Shown here piece after piece: positions 6,007-33,289 of a stretch of DNA of 33,289 bases (positions are counted from its first letter, which is position 1; each line of letters begins with the position of its first letter). Both the position numbers and the translations under genes were made by a program. Origin of the DNA: Bacteroidota bacterium (lineage in GTDB: Bacteria; Bacteroidota; Bacteroidia; B-17B0; Aurantibacillaceae). The stretch is taken from positions 1 through 33,289 of the forward strand of contig JAJONO010000055.1 of assembly GCA_021323535.1 (NCBI GenBank). Direction: 5' to 3'. Below the pieces are notes generated by a model. It ran no database searches and was not told where the DNA came from. It saw only the letters and a program-made list of their open reading frames with translations.

Positions 6007-8532
6007 TTAAACAGGGTCAACATCGATCTGTACTTTAAAATTCCATTTTTTGTAATTGTTATGAAGATCATCGATTGCCGTGTGGATTTTGGTACGGATG
6101 CTAATAGCGGATTCCTGTTTTGTGGTTTTGATCAGAAGCTGTTTGTAATATTGATTCTTAATTTTCGCAACCAAAGGAAATTCGGGACCAAGAATATTAT
6201 TTCCGAAATGCGGTTTAAGAAGTTGTAAAAGTTCCTGTGAAAGGTGATTTACTTCATTGAGATCTTTGCTCACCACACTTAATTCAAATAAGCGTGAATA
6301 CGGTGGATAATTGTATTGCTGACGTTCTTCGAGAATGCTCGTATAAAAATCGTCGAGTGTGTTTTCGATCACATGATCAATAACAATGTGTTTTGTTTGT
6401 GTGGTCTGAATAAAAACTTTCCCGCGTTTATCACTTCTTCCGGCACGTCCGCGAACCTGGGTGAGCAGTTGATAGGCTTTTTCAAAGGAACGGAAATCCG
6501 GGAAATTTAAAATGGAATCGGCATTTAAAATACCTACCACACTCACATTGTTAAAGTCCAAACCCTTCGTTACCATTTGTGTACCGATGAGAATATCAAT
6601 TTGTCCGTTTTCAAAATCGTCGATGAGTTGCTTATAAGCGTATTTACTTCGTGTGCTATCGAGATCCATGCGGGCAATTTTTGCTGCCGGGAAAAGTATT
6701 TCAATATCCTCTTCAATTTTTTCTGTGCCCAATCCTTTGAAGTGAAGTTGGTTGCTTCCGCAGGCGGCGCAGGTTTTAGGCGGAGGAACAGAGTATCCGC
6801 AATAATGACAAACCAATCGCTCCTGGTGTTTATGATAAATGAGAGAAACGTCGCATTGAACGCATTGTGGAACATGTCCGCATTTTTTACATTCTGTATA
6901 AGGCGCGAATCCTCTTCTGTTTTGAAATAAAATAACCTGTTCTTTATTTTTGAGAGCATTCTCAACAGCTTCGAAGAGAGGAGGGGTGAGGCAGGTTTTC
7001 ATCTGGTTGCTTTGTTCGAAGAAATTAACGTCGCACACTTCCACATCGGTTCCTCCTCCTGTAACAAATTGGGCAGGCAGACCAACTCTTGCAAATTTCC
7101 CTTGCTGAGCGTTGTAATTTGATTCGAGAGAAGGCGTGGCGCTTCCAAGAAGAACATTTGCACCGTGAAGTGAAGCTAAGTACAAAGCAGAATCCCTCGC
7201 GTTGTATCGTGGAGAAGGATCATGTTGTTTGAACGAATTATCGTGTTCTTCGTCCACAATGATCAATCCTAAATTATGAAAGGGTAAAAACAGAGACGAA
7301 CGCGCGCCTAGAATGATTCGGTATTTCGAGTTTTTGGTTCCTGGTTCCTGGTTCTCGGCTCTTGATTCTCCTTCAGTCTTTTGACTTAATACGTTATTCC
7401 AAATCTCCACTCTTTCATTCTCACTGAACCTTGAATGATAAACACCTACCTGTTCTCCAAAAACAGCGCCGAGCCGCGTGATGAGCTGGGTGGTTAGTGC
7501 AATTTCGGGGATCAGGAAGAGAATTTCTTTTCCTTTGGCAAGCGTATCTTTTATGAGCTGAATGTATATTTCTGTTTTTCCGCTGCCGGTAACACCATGT
7601 AATAAAACTGTTTTGTTATTTTCAAATTCAGTTTTTACCTGCGCGTAAGCTTTTAACTGAAGCTCACTTAAAGTTTTATTTACAGAATTGCTTTTTTCGA
7701 AGAGTAAACGTCCTACTTCAAATTCCTGTTCGCTAAGAATATTCTTCTTTACAAGAGCAGAAACCGCGGCAGCTTCCACTTTCCTGGTAAGTTCCGATTT
7801 CCGTATCCAGTTTTCAGTTTTTGAAGTATTGGTTTTTTCGAGATGTAAAAAATAAAGCAGGGCCTCGGCCTGTTTGAAGGCTTTTTTTTCTAATTGATCA
7901 AGAGCCGAGCTGAGTTTCTTTTCCTCTTTATATGCTTCGTTAAGTTTTACAAATGAAACAAGCTTGGGTTTGAACTTGTCCTTTACTTCTTCGTAAACAA
8001 CAATGGCGTTTTTCTTAAGAAGATTATTGATAACGGGTTGAAACGATTTTAAATTCAGCAGTGCTTGCACATCATCAAAGCTTAAATTCGGGGCGGCGTG
8101 CAAGGCATCAAGGATCATGTGTTCACGTTCTGTGAAATGATTATGACTTACTTCCTCAAAACTAAAATCACCATTTAATTGTATGTGTGAGGTGCTGCTG
8201 AGCTTTAATCCAGAGGGTAATGCGGCGTTCATAACATCACCCGGATTAGCACAATAATAGAATGAGATCCAGTCCCAGAATTTCAATTGCAATGGAGTTA
8301 CAACAGGATGATCATCTAAAATGCTTTCAATGTATTTTGCTTCGTATCCTTTCGGGGCCGTTTCATGAATGTTGTAAATAATACCAGTGTAAATTTTCGA
8401 TTTTCCGAATTGAACCAGCACTCTTTGCCCGATCTTCACTGAGTCGTTTAATTCCTGTGGGACACGGTATGTGTACTTGTTAGGAACACCCAAAGGCACG
8501 ATCACATCGGTGAAAAACGTTTTGCGCTCCAT
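6007..8532 (-). CDS. priA: Primosomal helicase PriA (replication restart)
   Basis: PriA recognises stalled forks and reloads the replicative helicase. At 841 residues it is somewhat longer than the E. coli protein. Visible parts are the N-terminal DNA-binding domain (from TDVIVPLGVPNKYTYRVP), Walker A GVTGSGKT (313-320), DEEH box (427-430), GSATPSLE (motif III, about 463-470), and eight zinc-binding cysteines at 548, 551, 557, 560, 575, 578, 588 and 591. The C-terminal helicase motifs GTQMVTKGLDF and QVRGRAGRS follow. Residues 386-402 form a low-complexity insert (GESRAENQEPGTKNS) encoded by 7-bp repeats; the helicase motifs on either side are intact. The ATG overlaps the stop codon of the upstream ZIP gene by one nucleotide, which suggests translational coupling. 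Confidence 0.97.
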   Translation of the reverse strand: MERKTFFTDVIVPLGVPNKYTYRVPQELNDSVKIGQRVLVQFGKSKIYTGIIYNIHETAPKGYEAKYIESILDDHPVVTPLQLKFWDWISFYYCANPGDVMNAALPSGLKLSSTSHIQLNGDFSFEEVSHNHFTEREHMILDALHAAPNLSFDDVQALLNLKSFQPVINNLLKKNAIVVYEEVKDKFKPKLVSFVKLNEAYKEEKKLSSALDQLEKKAFKQAEALLYFLHLEKTNTSKTENWIRKSELTRKVEAAAVSALVKKNILSEQEFEVGRLLFEKSNSVNKTLSELQLKAYAQVKTEFENNKTVLLHGVTGSGKTEIYIQLIKDTLAKGKEILFLIPEIALTTQLITRLGAVFGEQVGVYHSRFSENERVEIWNNVLSQKTEGESRAENQEPGTKNSKYRIILGARSSLFLPFHNLGLIIVDEEHDNSFKQHDPSPRYNARDSALYLASLHGANVLLGSATPSLESNYNAQQGKFARVGLPAQFVTGGGTDVEVCDVNFFEQSNQMKTCLTPPLFEAVENALKNKEQVILFQNRRGFAPYTECKKCGHVPQCVQCDVSLIYHKHQERLVCHYCGYSVPPPKTCAACGSNQLHFKGLGTEKIEEDIEILFPAAKIARMDLDSTRSKYAYKQLIDDFENGQIDILIGTQMVTKGLDFNNVSVVGILNADSILNFPDFRSFEKAYQLLTQVRGRAGRSDKRGKVFIQTTQTKHIVIDHVIENTLDDFYTSILEERQQYNYPPYSRLFELSVVSKDLNEVNHLSQELLQLLKPHFGNNILGPEFPLVAKIKNQYYKQLLIKTTKQESAISIRTKIHTAIDDLHNNYKKWNFKVQIDVDPV
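7337..7371. repeat. Heptamer repeat inside priA
   Basis: Five consecutive 7-mers (GTTCCTG twice, then GTTCTCG, GCTCTTG, ATTCTCC) lie within the priA reading frame. They encode a polar insert between the Walker A region and the DEEH box. The intergenic segment at 28282-28317 is built from the same kind of heptamer. Confidence 0.6.
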
Positions 8533-14394: not shown

Positions 14395-14763
14395 TTATTT
14401 AGTGAGAACAACTCCTTTATACCTTAACTTATGCGGTCCTTTAGGATCATTGCTCACTACGTTAACCGTACGATCCTGACGATCGTAAACTGTTTTGGTG
14501 TCAAAGTTTACAGTTATTTTAGCCGATTGGCCTGGCGCTATGGGTTGCTTGGAATAATCTACGGTTGTGCACGAGCAGGAAATTTCAACATCGGTAATTA
14601 ATAAAGGCTGGTTGCCTTTGTTGGTAATATCGTAATCGAGGTGAATCACTTCGCCTTTTTTTACAAATCCGAAGCTTTTCTTGGCATCTTTTATTTCCAG
14701 TTTAGCCTGTGAAAATACACAGAAAGAGGAAAGAAGAAAGAGAACGATAAAATGTTTTTTCAT
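14395..14763 (-). CDS. DUF1573 secreted protein, shortest of three
   Basis: After a signal peptide (MKKHFIVLFLLSSFCVFSQA) the product is a single Ig-like/ASPM-SPD-2-type beta domain, as in DUF1573 proteins. Marks are the FGFVKKGEVIHLDYDITNKG stretch, a CSCT motif after the ITDVE strand, and KITVNFDTKTVYDR. I chose the ATG at 14763, which gives 122 residues; an ATG six bases earlier (14769) would add Met-Ile. The family is very common in Bacteroidota and its role is not settled. It is the last gene of a three-gene cluster of the same family and is separated from the middle one by a strong terminator, so it may have its own promoter. Confidence 0.85.
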   Translation of the reverse strand: MKKHFIVLFLLSSFCVFSQAKLEIKDAKKSFGFVKKGEVIHLDYDITNKGNQPLLITDVEISCSCTTVDYSKQPIAPGQSAKITVNFDTKTVYDRQDRTVNVVSNDPKGPHKLRYKGVVLTK

Positions 14764-14774
14764 AATCATTGATC

Positions 14775-14806
14775 AAAAATAAAAAATCCCGCCATTTCTG
14801 ACGGGA
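14775..14806 (-). terminator. Intrinsic terminator after the middle DUF1573 gene
   Basis: On the minus strand TCCCGTCA pairs with TGGCGGGA (14799-14806 with 14787-14794, one G-U pair) around a GAAA tetraloop. It is followed by TTTTTTATTTTT. It begins 23 nt past the stop codon at 14830. Confidence 0.85.
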
Positions 14807-14829
14807 CTCTTTATAAATTTTAAACCATT

Positions 14830-15264
14830 TTAATTTTCACCGGTGGCCGGTTTCGCTTTGATTTCACCTTTAATGCGCACTTTCATAGAGCTTAGTTTTG
14901 CATTAGAGGAAACAGTTACGTTTTTCTCGAAGCGACCTTCGCGTTTAGTGTCATATTTTACTTTGATCACTCCGCCTTTGCCTGGTAATATTGGTTCCTG
15001 TGGCCATCCTGGTTTACCATCGATGGTAGTTGCAGTACAACCACACTCACCTGTTACAGATGTAATCGTTAACGGTGTTTTACCAACGTTAGTGAATTTA
15101 AATTCGCGGATACCGTTAGCATCATAATCAATGCTTCCGTAATCGATCACTTCGTTCTCAAATTTAATGTCTGGAGCGTTTGGATCCGGGTTTGGAACTA
15201 CCTGCGCGTTTGACGTTAAAGTCAAACCGAGCAGAACAACTAATAAAGAAAGAAACTTTTTCAT
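14830..15264 (-). CDS. DUF1573 secreted protein, middle copy
   Basis: This 144-residue protein has a signal peptide (MKKFLSLLVVLLGLTLTSNA) and one DUF1573 Ig-like domain. Visible marks are IKFENEVIDYGSIDYDANG, REFKFTNVGKTPLTITSV, the cysteine motif TGECGCTATT, the LPGKGGVIKVKYDTKREGRF strand pair and a final SSNAKLSSMKVRIKGEI. It resembles the third member of the cluster (15329-15838) more than the first. It should be periplasmic or surface located. A clear terminator follows it. Confidence 0.88.
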   Translation of the reverse strand: MKKFLSLLVVLLGLTLTSNAQVVPNPDPNAPDIKFENEVIDYGSIDYDANGIREFKFTNVGKTPLTITSVTGECGCTATTIDGKPGWPQEPILPGKGGVIKVKYDTKREGRFEKNVTVSSNAKLSSMKVRIKGEIKAKPATGEN

Positions 15265-15328
15265 TTTATAATCTATTTATTGCAGGGGTAAAACAAATGA
15301 GATGCCAGAGAATAACAAGTTTTGTGAA

Positions 15329-15838
15329 TTAACCTTTTTTGTCATTAGTTGGGGCACCTGTAGGTACTTTGTTCTCAGGGAAAGCAGGAGTTTCTACTTT
15401 CTGTTCAATGTTCCCTTTAATGGTTAATACTACATTTCCGCTTTTCGCGTTTGAAGACACAGTAACTGTTTTATAGATACCGCCTACACGTTGAGTGTCA
15501 TATTTAATAACAATCTCACCGCTTTTACCCGGTAATACAGGCTCTTTAGGACACTGTGGAACTGTACATCCGCAGCTTGCCTGGCAATTAGTGATTACTA
15601 ATGGTTCTTTACCATTGTTTACGAATTTGAATTTGCACTCGCCATTGTCGCCTTGTTTAATATTTCCATAATCATGAACCATTTTGTCCATTTTAATGTC
15701 AGCGAGGCTGGTTGGTGCTGTTGTAGCAGTAGCAGGGGCTCCGTGGTTATGACCATCGTTTGCACTGTGGCCATCCTGTGCGAAAGAGAATGCAGTCAGT
15801 CCTGCAGTCAATGCTAAAGTAAAGATTAGTTTTTTCAT
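15329..15838 (-). CDS. DUF1573 secreted protein, longest copy
   Basis: The 169-residue product has a signal peptide (MKKLIFTLALTAGLTAFSFA), then a His-rich, Ala/Thr-rich linker (about residues 21-45, with DGHSANDGHNHG) that the other two copies lack, then the DUF1573 domain. The domain has VHDYGNIKQGDNGECKFKFV, a cysteine cluster NCQASCGCTVPQC and LPGKSGEIVIKYDTQRVGG. A short Pro/Lys-rich tail follows. The His linker and four cysteines after the domain start could bind metal, but this is only a guess. It is the first gene of the cluster and is divergent from valS. Confidence 0.88.
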   Translation of the reverse strand: MKKLIFTLALTAGLTAFSFAQDGHSANDGHNHGAPATATTAPTSLADIKMDKMVHDYGNIKQGDNGECKFKFVNNGKEPLVITNCQASCGCTVPQCPKEPVLPGKSGEIVIKYDTQRVGGIYKTVTVSSNAKSGNVVLTIKGNIEQKVETPAFPENKVPTGAPTNDKKG

Positions 15839-29601: not shown

Positions 29602-29949
29602 ATGATGAACATCAAAAATCACGTGCAGTTGATTGGTCGTTTGGGAGCAGATCCTCAGATCAGGACCATGGAAAACGGAGCAGTATTCGCCAGATTTGCG
29701 CTGGCGATCAATGAGAGTTATACCAATAAGAAAGGGAAGAAGGTGAATGGTATTCAATGGCACCAGGTGGTTGCATGGGGAAGTCTTGCCGAAATTGCTG
29801 GTAAGATCCTTCAGAAAGGTACCGAAGTAACAGTTGATGGTAAGCTTTTAAACCGGAGTTGGACAGATAAAGAAGGGATTAAGAGAACGGGTACCGAAAT
29901 CGTAGCGAATGAATTGCTGGTGATTAACAACACAAATAAAGCTGCATAA
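29602..29949 (+). CDS. ssb: Single-stranded DNA-binding protein, short form (first copy)
   Basis: This 115-residue protein is a single OB-fold. It opens with NHVQLIGRLGADPQIRTMENG and contains the SSB strand GIQWHQVVAWGSLAEIAGKIL and the TEVTVDGKLLNRSWTDKEG loop. It stops shortly after the OB-fold. The flexible linker and the acidic DDxPF-type tip that recruits partner proteins in long SSBs are missing. Two ATG codons are adjacent (29602, 29605), and I used the first. A second ssb follows at 30183. The replication SSB is probably encoded elsewhere, and these two may act in recombination, DNA uptake or a mobile context. Confidence 0.92.
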   Translation: MMNIKNHVQLIGRLGADPQIRTMENGAVFARFALAINESYTNKKGKKVNGIQWHQVVAWGSLAEIAGKILQKGTEVTVDGKLLNRSWTDKEGIKRTGTEIVANELLVINNTNKAA

Positions 29950-29954
29950 ATAAA

Positions 29955-30049
29955 GTCGTCGACACAGGCATACTGATTTTAATTTACCATCATTTCTAAT
30001 TATAATCAAACAAGGTGGATTAATTTCAGGAACCTGTGTTCCGGACGAC
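29955..30049. repeat. Inverted repeat downstream of first ssb
   Basis: GTCGTCGACACAGG (29955-29968) is complementary, with a 3-nt bulge, to CCTGTGTTCCGGACGAC (30033-30049). The 64 nt between are AT-rich. It could be a long hairpin in the transcript between the two ssb genes. Confidence 0.45.
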
Positions 30050-30182
30050 AATAAGTTGAAGTGAAATTTGTAATCAGCGGAATCTGTGGTTGAAAACAGA
30101 CTTAGGAATAAAAGATCCGGAATAACCAATGATCCCGTATTATCAGGCGTAGCTCAAAATAAAAATAAAAATCAATAATATC

Positions 30183-30521
30183 ATGAATACAGTAAACAGA
30201 GTACAACTCACAGGAAATCTCGGTAAAAAACCAGAGATCAAATCATTCGAAAACGGAAACAAAGTCGCAAAATTCTCCGTGGCAACAAACGAAGAATACA
30301 CAACCAAAACTGGTGAAAAAGCTACTGATACACAATGGCACAATGTCGCTGTTTGGGGTAAGTTGGTAGAGGTAGTGGAAAGTGGTCTCGACAAAGGAAC
30401 TTTTGTTAGTGTAGAAGGGCGTCTAAGTACAACGCAGTATACCGATAAAAGTGGCGTGAAAAAATACTTCACCGAGATTGTTGCAACCGAGGTGATTGTA
30501 AAAGAAAAAGCCGGGTCGTAA
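30183..30521 (+). CDS. ssb: Single-stranded DNA-binding protein, short form (second copy)
   Basis: This 112-residue OB-fold protein has MNTVNRVQLTGNLGKKPEIK, the QWHNVAVWGKLVEVVESGLDKG strand and VSVEGRLSTTQYTDKSGVKKY. It ends in KEKAGS. Like its neighbour it has no linker and no acidic tip. The two proteins are clearly related but well diverged, and their flanks are not alike, so the duplication is old or they were acquired separately. An inverted repeat lies between the genes and a hairpin array follows this one. Confidence 0.92.
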   Translation: MNTVNRVQLTGNLGKKPEIKSFENGNKVAKFSVATNEEYTTKTGEKATDTQWHNVAVWGKLVEVVESGLDKGTFVSVEGRLSTTQYTDKSGVKKYFTEIVATEVIVKEKAGS

Positions 30522-30641
30522 AGCCGGCCATTAGGCTGATTTGAGCGCGGTGTTTCTCCTGGTACATCGCCTTGGGGGTTACATCGCCTCAGATCGGTCC
30601 GGATCAAATTACAAGTTCCAATGTTAAACTATTGCGATTTT

Positions 30642-30676
30642 GGAGCCTGATACCATCTGAATTTCCATCAGGTTCC
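30642..30676. repeat. Hairpin 1 of the array
   Basis: GGAGCCTGAT (30642-30651) and ATCAGGTTCC (30667-30676) pair over 10 bp with one mismatch and a 15-nt loop. It precedes the three-unit repeat and is not part of its period. Confidence 0.45.
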
Positions 30677-30678
30677 AG

Positions 30679-30773
30679 CCCTGAAGCAGCAATGCTTCAA
30701 CGGTATTCAACCCTGAAGTGCAATGCTTCAGAGGTATTTAACCCCGAAGTGTAATCCTTCGGGGTTTTATATT
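30679..30773. repeat. Three tandem hairpin repeats, ~31-bp period
   Basis: Units start at 30679 (CCCTGAAGC), 30711 (CCCTGAAGT) and 30742 (CCCCGAAGT). Each unit is a stem whose two halves read GAAG...CTTC around GCAATG- or TGTAATC-like loops, followed in the first two units by GGTATTyAACC. The third unit is also the strong terminator at 30740-30770. Copies differ mainly in stem bases, and pairing is kept. Confidence 0.7.
30740..30770 (+). terminator. Intrinsic terminator after second ssb
   Basis: AACCCCGAAG (30740-30749) pairs perfectly over 10 bp with CTTCGGGGTT (30757-30766) around a 7-nt loop and is followed by TTATATT. It lies about 220 nt past the stop codon of ssb and ahead of the gmhA-like gene. 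Confidence 0.75.
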
Positions 30774-30859
30774 ACCCACTCGTCTAATCAACAACGGAAG
30801 ACTAATATTTAAACCAAAATACTTACCTCCAAATGATCAAAAAAACATAAATTTATACC

Positions 30860-31377
30860 ATGGTTAAATTTATCCAGGATAAGATTCAGGCATCCATCGA
30901 CCTTAAAACGAAGTTGATGCAGGACACTCAAATCCTGTCTCAGGTCAGCGATCTTGTTTCAGATATTATAACATGTTACAATAACGGCGGAAAAGTGCTC
31001 TGGTGCGGCAATGGAGGCAGTGCGGCCGATGCGCAGCACCTCGCAGCCGAACTCAGTGGGCGCTTCTATTATGATCGTCCGCCGCTTTTTTCAGAAGCCC
31101 TTCACGTAAATACCAGTTATACCACAGCTGTTGCTAATGATTACAGCTACGATGTCATTTATAGCCGTCTCGCAACGTTATCAAAGCGATTGAAGAAGCA
31201 AATTCTCTGGGAATGATCACTGCTGCTTTTACAGGTGAAAGCGGAGGTAAAATGAATGGACTTTCGAAATACCTGGTCAATATTCCAAGTAAAGATACTC
31301 CCCGGATCCAGGAATGCCACATGGTGCTGGGCCACACTATATGCGAACTTGTAGAGCTTAAACTGTTTCCAAAATAA
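30860..31377 (+). pseudogene. gmhA: Phosphoheptose isomerase-like SIS gene broken by an internal deletion
   Basis: The gene starts as a normal GmhA-type SIS protein, the isomerase that converts sedoheptulose 7-phosphate to a heptose phosphate for lipopolysaccharide. It has GNGGSAADAQHLAAELSGRF with His60 and Glu64, the expected zinc ligands. After VANDYSYDVIYSRL the frame is lost and reading ends at 31216. A second frame (31174-31377) carries the rest, NVIKAIEEANSLGMIT to TPRIQECHMVLGHTICELVE, with the other zinc-ligand candidates Gln and His. Between the halves about 21 residues are missing, including the STSGNS phosphate-binding loop; the frame change fits a loss of about 64 nt. An assembly error is the main alternative. 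The end lies 1 nt before the next start codon. Confidence 0.8.
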
Positions 31378-31378
31378 A

Positions 31379-33289
31379 ATGTTTAAAAGAACAACCTCCT
31401 ATATTTTCTTCTTTCTTGTTCTTTCTACCTGTTTCCTTCCGGCGCAAAACCGGAAAATAGACAGTCTTAACCGTATTTTTCCGACATCGCACGACACCAT
31501 GAAGGTGTACATCCTGTGTTCCATTTCGCGTTTCTATGAAGCTAACGATCCTCAAAAAGCAATTAAAATGGCCGATAGCGCGCTCGGTATCGCCAAAAAA
31601 GCCAATTACCAGATGGGCATCGGTGGGGCTTACGGAAGCCTCGGAAGCTGCCTCTGCACTGCTGGGCGTTATGACGAATCTATTAATGCACTCATCAGCG
31701 CCATTAAAATTTTTGAGGCCAAGGGCGCTAAAAGGAATCTTGCTAATAACTACAATGGTTTGGCGAATGCCTACATGGGATTGAAGAATAATGATAAAGC
31801 TTACGAATATTTTCTTAAGTCCTACAATCTTTCCAAAGAGATCGATAATAAATTCATGATCGCGGTAGCCGGAGTGGGTGTTGGAAATATGCTGATGGAA
31901 AAAGGCAAGCATAAAGAAGCTATCGAGTATTACAAAACATCCGAAAAAGTATTTAAAGATAATGGTGTTACTAATTACGAAGCCATGTGCATTACCATGA
32001 TTGGCGAAACCTACGCAAAGGATTCTAATTATGTGGAAGCTGAAAAATATTTCGTCAAATCACTTCCTCTCTTCAAAAACTCCAATGATGAATATGGACT
32101 AGCTGTCAACCTCGCTAACCTTGGGAGCGTTGAGGCAAACCGTAAAAACTACAAAAAAGCTGCAGAATATTACAACCAGGCGCTTGAAATAAATCTTCAC
32201 CGTAAAGCCATGGATAATATCCAGAACTCTGCAAAAGGACTAGCGGAAGTTCTCGAGCTTCAGAACAAACCTGCCGAAGCGCTCGCGGCTTTTAAAATTT
32301 ACATGCAGTACAAAGATTCTGTAGTAAATACGGAGCGTAACAAAGCTATTGCAGAAGCAGAAGGGAAATACGAGAACGAGAAAAAAGAACAGCAGCTCCA
32401 GGTAAAAAATCTCGAACTTGAAAAATCGCACATTGAGGTTACGCAACGCAACAGGTTAATTTATGTTTTCGTTGGGGCTATTGTTGTGTTCCTGGTGTTA
32501 TTGTTTTTTGTGTATCGCCAGTTTGTCCAAAAGAAAAAAGCAAATGTTCTGCTTCAGAATAAAAATGATGAGATCGAAAAACAAAAGAACATCATCGAGG
32601 AAAAGAACAAAGATATTACCGACAGTATCAACTATTCCAAACACATTCAGCAGGCCATTATCCCTTCACCTGTAAAAGTGAAACAATATTTACCGAATTC
32701 GTTCGTGATCTTTAAACCGAAAGATATTGTGAGCGGCGATTTTTATTTAGTAGATGAAGTAGCAGGATTAATTTACCTCGCCGTAGTAGATTGTACCGGC
32801 CACGGCGTACCAGGCGCCATGCTAAGCGTCTTCGCTAATTCTTCGATCAAAAACATTATCACAACTAATTATTTCCGCGATAATCCTGCGGGAATTCTCA
32901 GCGATCTGTGTTTCCAGTTCAAAAGTAATTTGCAGTCGCACACCACATCCATGACGGTGAACGACGGTGTAGACATGAGTATTTGTATCATCGATCTTCC
33001 CAATAATAAATTATACTTCTCCGGTGCTAAAAATGGTTTAATGCAGTTACGTAACAGCGAACTAATGGAATATCCAGCTGCGCGTTGGGGAATAAGCGGA
33101 AGTAACACCGGCGAACATTTGTTCTTCCATAATCATATTATCGATCTTCAGAAAGGCGACAAATTCTACATGAGCACCGATGGTTTCGTAGATCAGTTTG
33201 GCGGACCAAAAGGAAAAAAATTCAAACAGAAACAATTGAAGGATCTTGTTATGAATTACAGCAACCTGAGCTTCGATGCGCAGGCCGAT
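31379..33289 (+). CDS. TPR sensor with SpoIIE phosphatase, 3' end outside window
   Basis: The frame is open from the ATG at 31379 to the end of the window (637 codons, no stop). A signal peptide (FFFLVLSTCFLPAQ) is followed by about six TPR-like repeats (for example KQ/HKEAIEYYKTSEKVFKDNG and YKKAAEYYNQALEINLH), about residues 40-300. Then come a coiled coil, a single membrane helix (about 361-381), a second coiled coil and a SpoIIE/PP2C-type domain from about residue 425. The latter has GDFYLVDE, DCTGHGVPGA, NDGVDMSI and MSTDGFVDQFGG, the metal-binding motifs. The linker reads KDITDSINYSKHIQQAI, like DSINYAKRIQSAM in the propeller sensor. It is probably a periplasmic sensor with phosphatase output. 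It starts 1 nt after the broken gmhA. Confidence 0.92.
   Translation, partial: MFKRTTSYIFFFLVLSTCFLPAQNRKIDSLNRIFPTSHDTMKVYILCSISRFYEANDPQKAIKMADSALGIAKKANYQMGIGGAYGSLGSCLCTAGRYDESINALISAIKIFEAKGAKRNLANNYNGLANAYMGLKNNDKAYEYFLKSYNLSKEIDNKFMIAVAGVGVGNMLMEKGKHKEAIEYYKTSEKVFKDNGVTNYEAMCITMIGETYAKDSNYVEAEKYFVKSLPLFKNSNDEYGLAVNLANLGSVEANRKNYKKAAEYYNQALEINLHRKAMDNIQNSAKGLAEVLELQNKPAEALAAFKIYMQYKDSVVNTERNKAIAEAEGKYENEKKEQQLQVKNLELEKSHIEVTQRNRLIYVFVGAIVVFLVLLFFVYRQFVQKKKANVLLQNKNDEIEKQKNIIEEKNKDITDSINYSKHIQQAIIPSPVKVKQYLPNSFVIFKPKDIVSGDFYLVDEVAGLIYLAVVDCTGHGVPGAMLSVFANSSIKNIITTNYFRDNPAGILSDLCFQFKSNLQSHTTSMTVNDGVDMSICIIDLPNNKLYFSGAKNGLMQLRNSELMEYPAARWGISGSNTGEHLFFHNHIIDLQKGDKFYMSTDGFVDQFGGPKGKKFKQKQLKDLVMNYSNLSFDAQAD

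Follow-up and report, generated by a model that had tools for sequence, protein, structure and literature searches.

The only gmhA orthologue found in the draft genome of an uncultured Bacteroidota bacterium carries a clean 61-nt out-of-frame deletion, confirmed at the level of the assembly, that would remove the phosphate-binding and catalytic loop of the sedoheptulose-7-phosphate isomerase. Our main reading, to which we give roughly even odds (about 0.5), is that this is a recent and real deletion. The event would then have occurred very recently in the lineage that was sequenced, or exist as a variant in its population, and the locus would produce no working GmhA, an activity loss suggested by the missing loop. 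In kind the event is ordinary, either a recent mutation or an assembly error.

The window, that is the whole stretch of 33,289 nucleotides analysed here, is the entire contig C130 of a draft genome that totals 5.31 Mb over 141 contigs (completeness 97.48 %, contamination 1.18 %), and its first 200 bases have no match on any other contig of the genome. The gmhA gene occupies positions 30860-31377 as two halves in different frames (Table 1). Elsewhere in the window, three consecutive DUF1573 genes lie at 14395-15838 on the minus strand.

Table 1. Positions in the window of the gmhA lesion and its neighbours
Feature	Position	Strand	Remark
ssb gene 1	29602..29949	+	neighbour in some congeners
ssb gene 2	30183..30521	+	neighbour in some congeners
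gmhA half 1	30860..31171	+	first 104 residues, with the beginning of the SIS domain and the zinc ligands H60 and E64
Deletion junction	31172..31173	+	2 nt against 63 nt in relatives (21 codons including the STSGNS loop)
Out-of-frame tail of the shortened ORF	31172..31216	+	14 residues and TGA
gmhA half 2	31174..31377	+	frame differs from that of half 1; 67 aa plus TAA, with the zinc ligands Q and H
ATGA	31213..31216	+	ATG of a 54-aa ORF in the half 2 frame, overlapping the new stop
TPR/SpoIIE-type regulator	31379..33289	+	runs off the contig

The size of the lesion follows from comparison with relatives. By tblastn, all 109 loci examined in relatives (L007-L115, a set in which some loci are one genome taken from two collections) have 63 nt between the two halves, and a pattern-based count, which parsed 81 of 106 loci, gave a spacing of 21 residues every time. 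With 2 nt in the window against 63 nt in the relatives, 61 nt are missing and the net shift is one base; the breakpoints are placed by comparison with relatives that differ by about 25 % in DNA. The lost segment comprises the STSGNS loop, which in GmhA binds the substrate phosphate, together with the strand that precedes it. Instead of the single ORF of about 190 aa expected of GmhA, a gene caller sees an ORF of 118 aa ending at TGA 31214-31216, with half 2 following out of frame up to its TAA at 31375-31377. The original prediction had placed the junction within 31160-31180, with the loop gone along with about 21 residues and the frame shifted by one base. The breakpoint at 31171/31174, the reduction of the relatives' 21-codon segment to 2 nt and the reading of half 2 in the other frame bear this out, and only the predicted length of about 64 nt has to be corrected, by 3 nt, to the 61 nt given by all the relatives' loci.

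SIS-type homology is found on both sides of the lesion. Against the NCBIfam model TIGR00441, half 1 matches positions 4-72 with 82.6 bits and half 2 positions 94-154 with 57.5 bits, each below a cut-off (209.45) that applies to the whole protein. In Pfam the first ORF matches SIS_2, and a scan of half 2 at E 0.001 returned no match. Residues 1-107 and 124-192 of a congener protein match the two halves, and because these matches are collinear and have E-values of 7.5e-57 and 4.1e-36, chance is excluded. Identity to the protein of the relative G003 is 82 % and 87 % for the two halves. The congener GmhA in turn has 2xbl as its best match among solved structures (E 1.7e-53). In the gonococcal enzyme the zinc ligands are reported as H61, E65, Q175 and H183 (PMC5387315). 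By alignment their congener equivalents are H60, E64, Q171 and H179. The window retains all four, with H at 31037 and E at 31049 in half 1 and Q at 31309 and H at 31333 in half 2, as predicted. The window gene therefore resembles GmhA (TIGR00441; PDB 2xbl, 2x3y) in its collinear halves and its H/E/Q/H zinc positions, and also in the adjoining hddC-like and gmhB-like genes of a conserved neighbourhood. Unlike GmhA, it lacks 21 residues including the STSGNS loop and its frame is broken, so that as assembled it is probably non-working; loss of the loop should abolish GmhA activity.

The gene is widely conserved, and the surviving halves have not decayed. In a set of 60 genomes that includes the window's own, 57 have a match to half 1, and 33 of 36 congeners have an open frame of at least 194 residues; two more have pieces cut by a contig end, and one, 60 % complete, has no match. 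Over both halves, 67 columns are invariant in 40 relatives' loci (37 distinct), and the window departs from none of them. It carries four residues unseen in other sequences, and single relatives carry 0 to 9. At the codon level, 65 of 165 codons (151.3 nonsynonymous sites) are invariant among relatives and the window changes none, which puts unconstrained nonsynonymous divergence at no more than about 0.02 per site (95 % upper bound). Relative to the nearest congener, synonymous divergence is saturated (pS 0.78) and pN is 0.098. Since none of the 65 invariant codons has changed, any loss of gmhA is very young, and the lesion, if real, falls within a short final portion of the lineage's history. 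The relaxed constraint expected of a pseudogene after its lesion is not seen; unrelaxed constraint is what is expected of a lesion that is very young or of one that is unreal. The earlier description of the event as recent or an assembly error, in a gene otherwise free of decay, agrees with these counts and with the failure to find another orthologue. Contig C200 of genome G031 had looked like a close strain, with 98 % identity over 52 residues, but its DNA is only 74-76 % identical; it therefore belongs to a congener with an intact 3′ part and not to the same species.

The genes around gmhA were compared in 11 congener loci. An hddC-like and then a gmhB-like gene follow gmhA in 10 of them, the contig of the eleventh ending first; the gmhB-like gene begins 0.6-2.7 kb after gmhA, and the congeners' hddC-like genes are 63-71 % identical to this genome's. 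A TPR/SpoIIE regulator stands directly after gmhA in 7 of the 11, and at least two ssb matches lie upstream in 4. In the window, a tandem pair of different full-length ssb genes occupies 29602-30521, just upstream of gmhA. Between ssb2 and gmhA, at 30670-30770, lie three hairpin units in a tandem array with a period of 31 nt (2.6 copies, TRF score 106), of which the last hairpin is intrinsic-terminator-like. The array has a folding energy of -42.9 kcal/mol (z -7.0; none of 200 shuffled sequences did as well), occurs at a single place in the genome and belongs to no Rfam family. The regulator that follows gmhA is one of two SpoIIE-phosphatase signalling proteins on the contig (21619-25251 and 31379-33289), one with a two-component-regulator propeller and one with TPR repeats.

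The regulator shares its last 99 nt exactly with the end of contig C96. Beyond that stretch C96 carries a 334-aa gene, a guanylyltransferase most similar to HddC (NF049965; 212.8 bits against a cut-off of 300), a phosphatase whose best counterpart is GmhB (NF006506; 132.2 bits against a cut-off of 178) and, judged by eye, a glycosyltransferase-like protein. The 334-aa gene, which separates the regulator from the hddC-like gene (L128, G000:C96:35000-42465, 6286-7290, minus strand), has no Pfam match and was not found in the 11 congener loci. Elsewhere the genome encodes an HldA-like kinase (312.3 bits, below its cut-off of 345), HldC (198 bits, above its cut-off of 181.5), HldD at a contig end (303 bits, above 274.6) and seven GT9-family matches above cut-off. 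Every other heptose step thus has a candidate gene (HldA-like, HldC, HldD, GmhB-like, HddC-like, GT9), three of them below curated cut-offs, which answers the earlier suggestion to look for heptose genes. The same suggestion extended to another gmhA, and none was found in this 97.48 %-complete genome: searches with both halves and with the congener's half and full protein gave only weak SIS-type or chance matches.

Several local explanations for the junction were tried. In G003 a 13-nt near-repeat lies inside gmhA with its copies 69 nt apart, but slippage between such copies was rejected as the origin of the event because it would delete 69 nt and remove codons that the window keeps. A hairpin at the junction was likewise set aside, the only flanking inverted pair being 10 nt long with arms 149 nt apart. 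Recoding or a programmed frameshift was rejected because the loop itself is absent, and no RNA element matches Rfam at gathering scores in 30500-31500.

The following gene begins, as had been stated, 1 nt after the old stop codon (ATG at 31379, stop at 31375-31377). Lowered expression of that gene through polarity, which had been suggested as possible, is less sure than it seemed because the ATGA overlap could permit reinitiation: the overlap is a possible reinitiation site, and reinitiation there could carry ribosomes to the old stop beside the ATG of the following gene. The overlap is a by-product and not an adaptation, since the intact gene of G016 has the same GGA ATG ATC.

Evidence on the assembly itself comes from contig ends and from a survey of reading frames. 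Contig ends that overlap by a constant length are a signature of de Bruijn graph assembly, and graphs of this type drop sequence on their own at long exact repeats. Among 58 contig ends compared, all five overlapping pairs overlap by exactly 99 nt, and the assembly therefore looks like a de Bruijn one. At the codon-bounded breakpoints the repeat is only 0-2 nt (40 relatives, 37 distinct). Exact repeats common to both neighbourhoods in the relatives measure 5-13 nt and lie away from the breakpoints, and the window has no direct repeat of at least 8 nt in 31060-31290. With so little repeat for the graph to collapse, junction-spanning reads are likely, and the lack of a long repeat slightly favours a junction that is present in the reads. 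The frame survey compared 979 ORFs from 1.46 Mb of the congener G016 with 717 kb of the genome, or 13.5 % of it, gmhA being included by choice. It gave 153 orthologue-like matches, of which 142 were covered at least 80 % by one match; of the 11 others, gmhA was the sole gene split in two frames and the other ten were single partial matches. In the reverse survey a single match sufficed to cover 140 of 142. As the only frame split among 153 comparisons, gmhA does not point to an assembly that is generally frame-broken. A frame break flagged in the reverse survey, in an antisense ORF over ssb, was spurious. An apparent break in a gene of the relative G016, compared with the genome's orthologue (L188, G016:C7, 9198-9742), was seen in one survey pass and left unflagged in the revised survey.

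These data bear directly on whether living cells carry the lesion or instead have an intact gmhA from which 61 nt were lost in assembly or consensus. The second possibility, through low coverage, a chimeric read or the path of a minor strain chosen at a bubble, is a serious contender that we place a little short of even odds. The lack of decay and the full-length frames of the congeners speak for it, and candidates for the other heptose steps are as expected if gmhA is truly intact, which counts against a real mutation. So does the contig end about 2.1 kb downstream of the lesion, which means that the graph branched nearby in an already fragmented draft. Assembly errors are, moreover, a documented source of false pseudogenes (PMC11017572), likewise seen as frame breaks without decay in draft assemblies. 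The abstract of that work deals with per-genome counts of frameshifts and internal stops, whereas here there is one 61-nt deletion and no other frame split in the gene sample. A narrowly worded literature search for indel errors in metagenomes returned no papers. Against an assembly error stand the junction without a long repeat to collapse the graph, the otherwise unbroken frames of the survey and the finding of no orthologous piece on another contig, although that search would miss an isolated 61-nt piece. It is on this balance that we infer, at the even odds given above, a deletion present in living cells.

Two further readings would accept the deletion and give it another meaning. In one, the loss is settled and the isomerase step has passed to a SIS paralogue on contig C133, leaving gmhA free to decay. 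This paralogue (177 aa) is the best remaining match to the full congener GmhA (29 % identity, E 1.7e-11), has an intact SSSGNS and belongs to a cluster of surface-sugar genes that includes an epimerase and an adenylyl/cytidylyltransferase-like gene. However, by-eye alignment finds no counterparts of the zinc ligands E64 and Q171, its score of 76.9 against the GmhA model is far below the cut-off of 209.45, and gmhA itself shows no decay; we consider such a replacement very improbable. The cluster (L129, G000:C133, 6579-9226), which besides this second SIS isomerase-like gene and the epimerase holds a very divergent kinase-like protein and an HldC-like nucleotidyltransferase, is possibly a separate heptose-like sugar route. 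In the other reading, the ORFs coupled by ATGA encode a SIS protein in two pieces that lacks the loop and serves a non-enzymatic function. The overlap and the open second frame would allow this, but the ATG and its context are inherited from the ancestral frame, the protein would lack a strand as well as the loop, and none of the 109 relatives' loci has the arrangement, so that we find the idea barely credible.

A recent real deletion, the reading we prefer, has a known parallel. Shigella gmhA mutants arise under phage selection in the laboratory, and the S. flexneri mutants are likewise reported to carry frame-breaking or deletion mutations of gmhA (PMC8788674). There, spontaneous mutants were reportedly established by sequencing, phage assays and complementation; the present case is one assembly, known from its sequence alone and from a different phylum. 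Phage selection is thus a possible cause of the deletion. The fuller scenario, in which an uncultured environmental Bacteroidota population is losing surface heptose through a swept or polymorphic gmhA deletion, for example under phage pressure and with the rest of the pathway present, we regard as unlikely, if worth stating. The case is mainly a caution: when a conserved gene in a draft genome shows a clean lesion, artefact and biology are about equally likely. If the lesion is real, the first step of heptose supply would stop unless another isomerase substitutes, and the halted supply would truncate heptose-containing surface glycans. The locus would then make this uncultured Bacteroidota lineage a naturally occurring gmhA-null, and might be a sign of phage selection outside the laboratory.
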